Assembly: GCF_014218255.1 (NCBI RefSeq)
Contig: NZ_AP021872.1
Location: 868,001-932,000 of the forward strand
DNA: 64,000 nt
Source of the DNA: Mycoavidus sp. B2-EB
GTDB lineage: Bacteria > Pseudomonadota > Gammaproteobacteria > Burkholderiales > Burkholderiaceae
Direction of reading: 5' to 3'
Below, piece by piece: positions 1 through 9,602 of this stretch. Positions within the stretch are counted from its first letter, which is position 1. Each line of letters opens with the position of its first letter. Made by a program: the position numbers and the translations under genes. The notes under the pieces were generated by a model. That model was not told the DNA's origin and searched no databases. It worked only from the letters and a program-made list of their open reading frames with translations.

Positions 1-1021
1 TTCGGTTTTACTGGCGCTACGCGCGATCGCGCCTGCTCAGCAGCAGATTGCTTGTGCTCATTATTACAATTCAGAGGTCGGGTCGTCTAACGAGCTTGAA
101 CATGCTCGTCGCGTCGCCCAAAGCGTGGGAGCTCAGCTTGGTGAAATCGACACGGACGTTTTGTCGTTCGCACCGGTTAAACATCTCCCGCGAGTTGCAA
201 AGCCGCATATCCGATATTGCTTGCTCGCATTTAATCAGCATTTTGCGAGCCGGCTCGAGGAGCGTGAAAACAGTGTTCTGATTAGTGGGCATGGCGGGGA
301 TTCGTTATTTCTTGCCCCCCCACCTTTTGGCGTGCTGGCGGATGCAATGCTTACGCTGCGCTGGCAACAGCTGTATCGGATTGCGCTTAATTTAGCGTTA
401 ATTCGCAGAGCATCGCTGCTCCATATTGCGGGGCAGGCCATCAAGGCGGCATTTTCGGCTGATCCTTCTGAGGGGGTGAGCGGCACCTTCGGGTTAATGT
501 CTAAGGCGGCTGAACTCAAGCCATTGGATGGCCGGTCCCATTTGCACCCGTTTATGCAAAAGACGAAGATTCGCCTGCCTGGCAAGCTATACCAATTATT
601 TCTCGCCTATTTGTCGCTAGATGATGTAAGAACGCCGGCACATCCATTCAAAAAGGGGACACATTATCCCTTTCTGTGTCAGCCAATGGTCGAATTTGCG
701 CTGTCGATACCCAGCTATCGGCATTTTGACGGTCCTCATAATCGAATTATCGTGCGGCAATCTGTCTCCGAGGCAACCGGCTATGCGCATCTTTGGCGGC
801 GCAACAAAGGAGAAACCTCTGGCATTGATTTGCTCGGCATACGCCAACATAAGGAACATGTGATGGCGCACTGTCTCGAAGGTTTTCTGGTCAGGCAAGG
901 GTATATCGACCCGATTAAAACTCATGCGGCAATCCAGGAAAGTTGCAAAGGCCGTAGTGAATATTTCATGGATATTCTTCATCTTTATGCAGCAGAACTC
1001 TTTATTCAAGGATGGCAATAG
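1..1021 (+). CDS. Asparagine-synthetase-like lasso-peptide cyclase (C protein), 5' end outside window
   Basis: The reading frame is open from base 2 and has no start inside the window. The first residues read SVLLALRA, which fits the stretch just after the SGG-DSS pyrophosphate motif of the asparagine synthetase fold, so the N-terminal part is missing. SGHGGDSLF at about bases 282-308 matches the second ATP-site loop. The following residues (LAPPP) are more like lasso-peptide cyclases, such as CapC of capistruin, than like asparagine synthetase (ELFGGY). The stop lies 3 bases before the start of an ABC exporter, as in capC-capD/mcjC-mcjD gene pairs. Inferred role: ATP-dependent formation of the macrolactam ring on a lasso precursor. 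The precursor and B-protease genes would lie upstream. The alternative is an asparagine-synthetase homologue of another peptide pathway. Confidence 0.72.
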   Translation, partial: SVLLALRAIAPAQQQIACAHYYNSEVGSSNELEHARRVAQSVGAQLGEIDTDVLSFAPVKHLPRVAKPHIRYCLLAFNQHFASRLEERENSVLISGHGGDSLFLAPPPFGVLADAMLTLRWQQLYRIALNLALIRRASLLHIAGQAIKAAFSADPSEGVSGTFGLMSKAAELKPLDGRSHLHPFMQKTKIRLPGKLYQLFLAYLSLDDVRTPAHPFKKGTHYPFLCQPMVEFALSIPSYRHFDGPHNRIIVRQSVSEATGYAHLWRRNKGETSGIDLLGIRQHKEHVMAHCLEGFLVRQGYIDPIKTHAAIQESCKGRSEYFMDILHLYAAELFIQGWQ

Positions 1022-1024
1022 CCC

Positions 1025-2821
1025 ATGAAATTACGCAAAGTTCCTAAAGTTTTCAAGGTGCTGGGTTTTTTGCTGCGTTGCTTATGGACGCATGAGCGTT
1101 ATGCGCGCTGGCAAGTGGTGGCCGCCACCGGGTGTACTGGATTTTCAATTGGCTTGGCTGTGGTGACGCCGGTACTGCTTAAATTACTGATTGACGATTT
1201 TTCGAATTTATCGACCTCATCCATCACCGCTTATCTGTTGTGCGTCGCTTATGGTTGCGCGTGGTTTTTCTCGCAGGCGTTGCGGCGTGGCGAGCAATAT
1301 CTGGTGACGGCAATCAATGAGCGCATTAAACGGTCAATCACCATCAATTATGTGAGTCAGGTGCTCGGCCGTTCTGCGGCTGCGCTGAGTGAGCACCAAA
1401 GCGGTGCTTCGGCGAGCGAGGCGAGCCGCGCCCAAGACAGCGTGATGCGTGCTCTGCTTGGGATTTTTTGGCATATTGCGCCGCTTTGCATTGAAATCGG
1501 CTTAGCCTGCATTGTCGTGTTTTCGATGTTTGGCGCGGTTTATGCTTTGGTCTTATTTGGCTTTTTATCCGCTTATCTGTATTCCACGACCCTCACGATT
1601 TCATATTATACAGGCTTACAACGTAAGAAAAATCTGGCCTCGGACCGCGCTTCAACGTTGCTGATTGATACCCTCACGCATGCCGATACGGCCAAAGCTT
1701 TTGCAAATGAAGCGGGTGAACTGGGACAGCTTGACCGAGTTTACCAAGCCCGAGAACAAGCGAGTGTCCAGCTTGCTCGCAAAATGGAAATCTTTGGCGT
1801 GCTGCAATTACTGATTGTTGGCATTGGACTCACGACGTTGACGAGTCTGGCATGCCGGGATATTTTTGCAGATCGGCTTACCGTGGGTGACTTCGCGCTT
1901 TTAAATGGTTATCTGTTGCAATTCACCCTGCCATTGAGTTCTTTTGGCTATGCAATTCGTGAAGCACGGCTTGGTTTATTCAATCTCGAAGAGCTGCTGG
2001 ATAAATTGACTACGCGCTGGGATTTCAACGCGACTAGCCATGCGCTATTTGAGCGAGCACCTTCGATTCAATTTAAGCATGCGAGTTTTAGCCATACCCC
2101 GGGCCAATACGTTTTGCGAGATGCTAGTTTTTCCGTTCCAGCGGGTGCCTTTTGTGCGATTGTTGGCCCGACTGGCGCAGGCAAGTCTACCTTGATGAAA
2201 CTATTGTTGCGGTTGTATTCTCTTGAAAGCGGAGAGATTTTGATTGATAGTCGACCGATTGCATCGTTTTCTGAGGCAAGGTTGCGCCAATCGGTCAGCT
2301 ACGCCACGCAGGATGCGCATTTGTTAGACCGCTCACTCCGCGAAAATATCTGTTTTGCTTGTCCGCAGGCATCTGATGCAGAACTTGCGCGGGCCATCAG
2401 CACAGCGGCGCTCACGCCCGTCATTACGGCGGCAAAGGCTGGGCTAGAAACTCAAATCGGTGAGCGAGGCAATAAACTTTCAGGGGGAGAGCGGCAGCGT
2501 GTTACGCTGGCCCGCGCCCTTCTGAGGCAAAGTCACTTGCTCCTTTTGGACGAACCCACAGCCGCGCTCGATGGGCAAACTGAAGCAACAATTTTCAAGC
2601 ATTTGCATGAACGTTATCGTCAAACCACCCGACTGATCATCGCCCATCGTCTGTCAGCCATTCAACATGCGGATTTGATCTTAGTTTTAAAAGATGGCGT
2701 GATTGCGGAGCAAGGCACGCATGATGGTTTGTTGGAGAAAAATAGCATCTATGCAAGCCTTTGGCATAAACAGGTTGGGACGCCTATGACTGAGCGGCGT
2801 CAAGTCAGTGCTGTGCTTTGA
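1025..2821 (+). CDS. ABC exporter (TMD-NBD fusion), probable lasso-peptide export/immunity protein
   Basis: This is a 598-residue half-transporter of the exporter type. An N-terminal membrane domain with several hydrophobic segments covers about residues 25-320. The nucleotide-binding domain has Walker A GPTGAGKST (about 381-389), signature LSGGERQR (about 485), Walker B LLLLDEPTAALD (about 506) and the IIAHRLS switch histidine. The size and fused layout match McjD/CapD-type exporters. It starts 3 bases after the cyclase stop, with AAGGA in the end of the upstream gene as a possible ribosome site, so translation is probably coupled. Inferred role: export of the mature lasso peptide and self-immunity. 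MsbA-like lipid export is less likely because a separate msbA starts at 63514. Confidence 0.8.
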   Translation: MKLRKVPKVFKVLGFLLRCLWTHERYARWQVVAATGCTGFSIGLAVVTPVLLKLLIDDFSNLSTSSITAYLLCVAYGCAWFFSQALRRGEQYLVTAINERIKRSITINYVSQVLGRSAAALSEHQSGASASEASRAQDSVMRALLGIFWHIAPLCIEIGLACIVVFSMFGAVYALVLFGFLSAYLYSTTLTISYYTGLQRKKNLASDRASTLLIDTLTHADTAKAFANEAGELGQLDRVYQAREQASVQLARKMEIFGVLQLLIVGIGLTTLTSLACRDIFADRLTVGDFALLNGYLLQFTLPLSSFGYAIREARLGLFNLEELLDKLTTRWDFNATSHALFERAPSIQFKHASFSHTPGQYVLRDASFSVPAGAFCAIVGPTGAGKSTLMKLLLRLYSLESGEILIDSRPIASFSEARLRQSVSYATQDAHLLDRSLRENICFACPQASDAELARAISTAALTPVITAAKAGLETQIGERGNKLSGGERQRVTLARALLRQSHLLLLDEPTAALDGQTEATIFKHLHERYRQTTRLIIAHRLSAIQHADLILVLKDGVIAEQGTHDGLLEKNSIYASLWHKQVGTPMTERRQVSAVL

Positions 2822-8792: not shown

Positions 8793-9602
8793 TTACCACC
8801 ACTGATAAAAGTGATGCACTGGACCTGTGCCACTTCCCACGGTCAGCTTTGCGCTATTGATCAAGGTTTGGGTTAGATACGCTTTGGCATCGCTTACTGC
8901 ATTTTCTAAATCTAGTCGTTGCGGCCTTAAGGCCGCAATAGCGGCGGATAAAGTGCACCCTGTGCCATGCGTATGAGTACTTAAAATGCGTGCGCCGCCA
9001 AGACGTGTATGATGACCATTTGCTTCAATGAGCCAATCCGGGCTGAACTCGCTGCCTAGGTGGCCGCCTTTCATCAATACTGCGCGTGCTCCTAAAGCGC
9101 ATAGCGCTTCGCCCTGGAGCACCATTTCTTCTTCGCTCGTAGCGCAGTCTTGTTCAAGTAGAGCGGCTGCCTCAGGTAGGTTGGGCGTAATCAGTTCGGC
9201 AAGTGGGATAAGTTCTGCGCGTAAAATTGCAATGGCTTCTTTATCGAGCAATGCATGCTGGCTTTTTGAGAGCAACACTGTATCAAGGATCACATGCGCG
9301 GGTTGGTAGCGGTGCAGCGCAGCTGCTACCGCCCGTACAATATCTGCCGTGGCGAGCATGCCAATCTTGACCGCATCAATCTGAATGTCGCTCAAGACAG
9401 CATCAAGCTGCGCACTTACAGATTCTGCAGTCGCTGCATAAACGCCCTGTACGCCATGCGTATTTTGTGCCGTGAGTGCCGTGATAACCGTGGTCCCATA
9501 TACCCCCAGCGCTGAAAAAGTTTTTAAATCAGCCTGTATGCCAGCGCCGCCCCCAGAATCAGAACCAGCGATAGTCAGCACATTGTGAATGGAAGTAGAC
9601 AT
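8793..9602 (-). CDS. thiD: Hydroxymethylpyrimidine/phosphomethylpyrimidine kinase
   Basis: It phosphorylates HMP and then HMP-phosphate to HMP-PP for thiamine synthesis. The 269-residue ribokinase-like protein starts [20 protein letters not shown], the family's substrate-binding signature. It has VLMKGGHL and, near the C-terminus, [14 protein letters not shown] with the anion-hole/catalytic GTGC. A clear AAGGAAG ribosome site precedes the ATG at 9602. lplT lies 33 bases upstream on the same strand, so the two may be cotranscribed. I see no TPP-riboswitch signature upstream. Confidence 0.95.

Follow-up and report, generated by a model that had tools for sequence, protein, structure and literature searches.

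Which peptide does the operon at the edge of this stretch make, and how far does that peptide reach beyond its own family? The window, the whole stretch of 64,000 nucleotides analysed here, covers bases 868001-932000 of a genome that consists of one contig of 1,876,900 bases (1.88 Mb). Its first base falls inside the cyclase gene C of an intact four-gene lasso-peptide operon, A-B-C-D. The 10 kb upstream were read as stretch L002, where window position equals L002 position minus 10000 (L002:10001 is window base 1). The operon is laid out as follows.

L002:8295-8429, plus strand: gene A, 44-aa precursor (NF042427 91.6 bits, cut-off 45, over 44/44 positions; PF19392 78.9 bits)
L002:8382-8426, plus strand: predicted core GGSGQYREAGVGRFL of gene A
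L002:8460-8505, plus strand: A-B stem-loop, folding better than shuffled sequence (z -2.3 in the window genome, -5.1 and -4.8 in the congeneric genomes G018 and G039)
L002:8540-9349, plus strand: gene B, 269-aa leader peptidase (NF033537 65.4 bits, cut-off 33; PF13471 64.8 bits)
L002:9273-11021, plus strand, from 728 bases before window base 1: gene C, lasso cyclase, 582 aa (PF00733 58.4 bits)
Window 1-1021, plus strand: 3' part of gene C, with the open frame 2-1021 containing GHGGDSLFLAPP
Window 1025-2821, plus strand: gene D, complete 598-aa ABC exporter with membrane domain and ATPase (PF00664 62.2 bits, PF00005 114.5 bits, both over their cut-offs)

All four frames are open and intact. The original prediction held that the window edge cuts a lasso-peptide cluster and that a full exporter follows the cyclase homologue after 3 bases. 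Both statements are borne out. The genome supplies A, B and the start of C upstream; gene C stops at 1019-1021, the gap is 1022-1024, and the ATG of gene D comes next. A precursor ORF and a transglutaminase-like protease, which were to be looked for upstream, both lie directly upstream of gene C. With the precursor in hand, a core, GGSGQYREAGVGRFL, can be predicted, and the earlier verdict of an unknowable product is superseded. Gene C has an alternative start, a TTG at L002:9240 upstream of the ATG at 9273, which would give 593 aa.

The operon is flanked on one side by mrp and a Cu/Zn superoxide dismutase gene (sodC), and on the other by what we take to be dcd and a lysine/arginine-type decarboxylase gene (ldc). 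Gene order and the mrp and sodC flanks are common to the window genome, G018 and G039; homologues of the dcd/ldc flank stand at the same place in G039. A promoter scan upstream of gene A gave nothing useful. Upstream of the locus, L002:38-4594 encodes a 1518-aa protein that reads as a putative NTPase-like middle with many WD-type repeats.

The NCBIfam profile search places the precursor, over its full length, in the burhizin family. At its processing site EATM is followed by GGSGQYRE, which provides the marks of a lasso precursor: Thr(-2), Gly1 and a Glu within positions 7-9. The predicted core comprises the 15 residues after EATM, with a predicted ring from Gly1 to Glu8. The calculated [M+H]+ of GGSGQYREAGVGRFL minus water is 1535.771. 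Two families, NF042427 and Pfam PF19392, cover the 44-aa precursor, so that the latter, listed as DUF5967 ("unknown function"), can be named.

The cluster had been described as a capistruin-type operon. The capistruin operon of Burkholderia thailandensis has the gene order A-B-C-D, and its ring acceptor is Asp9. The two operons are alike in this order, in being proteobacterial and in having the exporter beside the cyclase. The description stands for the order and fails for the family; the predicted acceptor in the window core is Glu8. Only G1 and G4 are common to the window core and the capistruin core (GTPGFQTPDARVISRFGFN in a table of PMC12427821), that is, 2/15 positions agree, which rules out the capistruin family.

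Gene B is a lasso B2 transglutaminase-like leader peptidase. Its Cys178, His210 and Asp222 are invariant in 4/4 aligned sequences, and profile searches matched no PqqD-type recognition domain in it. For gene C, PF00733 scores 41.2 bits on the window fragment and rises to the listed value on the whole gene (cut-off 21), well beyond chance. The motifs SGGL.S, GxGGD and KG.T are invariant in all five lasso cyclases aligned, gene C included, and its SGGLESS sits just beyond the window edge. GxGGD is therefore not the departure, marking a lasso cyclase, for which it had been taken. Gene C stays under the NCBIfam lasso-cyclase cut-offs (NF033561 84.7 against 300; NF033535 43.1 against 525). Since it passes no curated NCBIfam cut-off, its role as cyclase rests on PF00733, the motifs and the context.

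Alternatively, C and D could belong to an asparagine-synthetase-like pathway other than lasso biosynthesis. Taken alone, the window fragment gives weak AsnB and macrolactam-cyclase matches, as such a pathway would. Against this stand the precursor and B2 directly upstream. A missing precursor or protease and an AsnB-type enzyme were the contrary findings named beforehand; instead the searches returned NF042427 at 91.6 bits, NF033537 at 65.4 and TIGR01536 (AsnB) at 46.9 on gene C, far below its cut-off of 267.1. Hence we rule out an AsnB-type enzyme of another pathway and regard a non-lasso role for C and D as extremely improbable.

Sequence comparison ties C and D to related loci. Gene D shares 64-92% identity with its counterparts in related lasso loci, and gene C is 59-65% identical to the two C genes of the Mycetohabitans genome G098. 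Searches for plasmid homologues of A and C found none, no solved structure matched B or C in sequence, and PHROGs returned a weak match to gene C only, unnamed.

If the established biochemistry of lasso peptides applies, B would bind the leader and cut after Thr(-2)-Met(-1). C would then activate Glu8 with ATP and join it to Gly1, trapping the tail, and D would export the product. We are highly confident, judging by the sequences, that the locus is an intact, single-copy lasso operon of the burhizin family (A-B-C-D) with GGSGQYREAGVGRFL minus water as its predicted product. It is carried by an endofungal bacterium of the Burkholderiaceae with a reduced genome, most likely a Mycoavidus. The window genome has one A, one B2 and one C.

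The locus adds a new, ordinary and intact member to a known family. A search of 398 genomes of the taxonomic family with NF042427 (matches at E <= 0.001) yields eight genomes, seven of them over the cut-off: the window genome (G000), G018 and G039, all of one genus, and the Mycetohabitans genomes G046, G079, G089 and G098. The eighth, under the cut-off, is Robbsia andropogonis (G052). NF042427 has no match in a further Mycetohabitans genome, G007, of 1.2 Mb.

G098 has exactly three precursors, whose core lengths are 23, 16 and 15 residues. Bratovanov and colleagues (2020) reportedly obtained mycetohabin-15 and mycetohabin-16 from Mycetohabitans rhizoxinica. Both peptides are assigned to that species in work cited by PMC12306442, PMC12299652 and PMC12696581, and in the part of PMC12696581 that concerns them their role is stated as unknown. 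The 23-residue core of G098 equals burhizin as printed in a table of PMC12427821, GGAGQYKEVEAGRWSDRIDSDDE. Burhizin and the window core both belong to NF042427 and share the G1/E8 layout, G4 and G12; the burhizin tail is longer and its loop different, and 8 of the first 15 residues agree.

The window core matches the G098 15-mer in 15/15 residues and 42/45 bases. This lies above the 33.8 bases expected under a synonymous-codon null (P 0.00025). Because of this identity and the common core length, the predicted product of the window operon is most likely mycetohabin-15. The probable mycetohabin system of G098 has the same core and precursor family, and other places in its genome encode related B, C and D. 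It differs in arrangement: no B, C or D lies within the 16-kb stretch (L029) around the 15-mer precursor, whereas the window precursor is the first gene of a complete operon at the mrp-sodC/dcd-ldc site. A 16-kb stretch of G046 (L034) likewise holds a burhizin-family precursor without homologues of B, C or D. The precursors of L029 and L034 are presumably processed by enzymes of another locus.

Is the window operon still in use? The two sister genomes carry a second lasso locus, whose precursor has a leader of the burhizin type; its core is GAVGEKNEAGFGKYDDDAV in G039 and GAVGEKNEAGFGKYDDV in G018. This locus is decaying (L027 in G039, L028 in G018): B is absent in both and D is absent in G018, where fragments of B remain between A and C. 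The window genome may have lost the second locus or may never have had one. A shrinking genome, together with sister loci that lack B or D, makes it possible that the window operon is silent too. In that case the cluster would be a relic that by chance is still whole in a genome reduced to 1.88 Mb. The absence of a second locus from the window genome fits this, but four open frames with their catalytic motifs and the A-B hairpin have been retained, and the core has kept 15/15 residues while its codons drifted (39/45 bases against G039). We therefore consider a relic unlikely. Leader and enzymes vary far more than the core does, which points to selection on the peptide product.

Precursor number varies at the window-type locus: three in tandem in G018, two in G039 and one in the window genome. 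Aligned to the G018 array, the window precursor pairs on its leader side with the first copy and on its 3' side with the flank of the last copy. An array cut down by recombination within the cores would leave such a pattern. The arrays of G018 and G039 may instead have expanded. Mrp and SodC place the window genome nearer G018; B, C and D disagree on that. The two G039 precursors have different leaders and identical 45-base cores.

Beyond the endofungal genera the same cores reappear. A degenerate core pattern was scanned against a genome collection, from which records near the window's own genome may be left out, and yielded eight stretches: four from Mycetohabitans, one from Robbsia andropogonis, one from Streptomyces iconiensis and two judged to be chance. 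Of the chance matches, L039 (Planctomycetaceae) sits in a long frame running past the core, and in L041 (Bacteroidetes) five residues precede the core, without a leader. Neither core pattern matched viral contigs.

Robbsia encodes the identical 15-mer behind a different and very short leader of about 18 residues. The core sits behind a B and a C gene, and this C is 25-28% identical to the endofungal C. Four tiny ORFs with lasso-like cores and unusually short leaders, the 15-mer and three more, stand in a row after B and C (L037:5700-6282). The Robbsia stretch that was read holds no exporter of the D type. According to a survey, as far as its scoring of this genus goes, Robbsia is without lasso clusters (PMC8506256).

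In S. iconiensis (G398:C13) the core GGSGKYREAGVGRFL agrees with the window core at 14/15 positions; it has Lys instead of Gln at position 5, and the calculated [M+H]+ of its product is 1535.808. The leader is typically actinobacterial: NF033521 matches residues 22-41 of the precursor, and NF042427 matches residues 35-53 only, at 29.6 bits against a cut-off of 45. The cluster has the ordinary order A-C-B1-B2-D. At a threshold of 1e-5 blastp does not match its C to gene C of the window operon; with other Streptomyces lasso cyclases this C shares about 40% identity. The genome is unusually rich in lasso systems: it has 10 cyclase matches and 13 precursor leaders of the L3 type. A second Streptomyces genome (G481:C1) has the core GAVGEKNEAGFGKYDDD, identical at 17/17 positions to the first 17 residues of the G039 second-locus core, behind an actinobacterial leader (NF033521 21.0 bits, cut-off 19). 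Gene C of G481 is split between two frames, which may reflect a dead cluster or an assembly error at that point. Thus two Streptomyces L3-leader clusters have cores like the endofungal ones but differ from the window operon in the NF033521 leader, a separate B1, the order A-C-B1-B2 (followed by D in S. iconiensis) and distant cyclases. Among open-licence papers we found no published account of the shared cores.

Such cores are rare in Streptomyces. We defined a pattern as GxxGxxxEAG, a residue with T as the middle base of its codon, G, one of few polar residues, and F or Y. It occurs in 2/392 Streptomyces genomes, in both cases as these two cores, while the reversed pattern occurs in 3/392. 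Across 296 genomes drawn from the class, overlapping the 392, it is found only in S. iconiensis, the centre of the draw. We also collected 48 Streptomyces loci with 45 distinct cores; 18 loci, which lean towards similarity because they were found with the S. iconiensis precursor, were joined by 30 of 73 further matches. Compared with the endofungal cores, 43/45 agree at 0-6 of 15 positions and the other two at 14 and 15.

Did DNA move recently between these genera? Our null takes the residues as given and draws codons by host usage, with codon tables from a few kilobases per genome. Under this null S. iconiensis and Robbsia share 34/45 core bases (33.6 expected, P 0.52), S. iconiensis and the window 30/45 (32.2), and S. 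iconiensis and G098 32/45 (33.0). For Robbsia the values are 31/45 with the window (33.8) and 33/45 with G098 (34.0). The second core pair, G481 and the G039 second locus, which was noticed after the fact, shares 42/51 (40.0, P 0.22). None of these cross-genus pairs is more alike than the null predicts beyond chance variation, and hence recent DNA transfer of the shared cores is unsupported by synonymous sites.

Selection on the peptide itself is the best explanation for cores that recur behind unrelated leaders, whether they arrived there through convergence or through old transfer of the core, and we hold these two routes to be about equally likely. In the first scenario unrelated lasso systems reached one sequence that fits one conserved target. 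Leaders, gene order and enzymes differ, as the S. iconiensis cyclase illustrates; codon similarity is not in excess; and the match is seen for two independent cores. Identities of 14/15 and 17/17 are very exact for such a process, and there are no partly similar Streptomyces cores among the 45. Convergence of the shared cores is a serious candidate that falls somewhat short of an even chance.

Old transfer of a core-coding segment into local precursor genes that kept their own leaders could equally account for the Robbsia and Streptomyces matches, and we rate it just as tentatively. Cores do appear to recombine within arrays: the two G039 precursors differ in leader around one shared 45-base core, and the window precursor combines the leader side of the first G018 precursor with the 3' flank of the last. 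Moreover, wherever residue 7 is Arg in the window genome, G018, G039, Robbsia and S. iconiensis, its codon is AGR, even though AGG makes up just 3-6% of Arg codons in Robbsia and S. iconiensis. The G046 and G079 precursors, however, have CGA at Arg7, and the synonymous sites of both the S. iconiensis-Robbsia and the G481-G039 pair are without excess.

Taken together, we give an even chance to the broader proposition that at least two lasso peptides of endofungal Burkholderiaceae are also made, in near-identical or identical form, by Streptomyces through unrelated leaders and distant enzymes, so that the peptide, not the gene, would be under selection. If true, either core cassettes would pass from the lasso systems of one phylum to those of another, or such systems would converge on one conserved target down to the residue.

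With this locus a known, functionally mute lasso family gains a member whose operon is kept whole in a 1.88-Mb endosymbiont genome, one that lacks the relatives' paralogous locus. More important is that the same cores recur in Robbsia and Streptomyces, because this provides natural pairs of near-identical peptides from independent systems. With such pairs it becomes testable whether cores travel apart from their leaders or a shared target pulls them to one sequence. The recurrence also flags these lasso peptides as worth target-finding.
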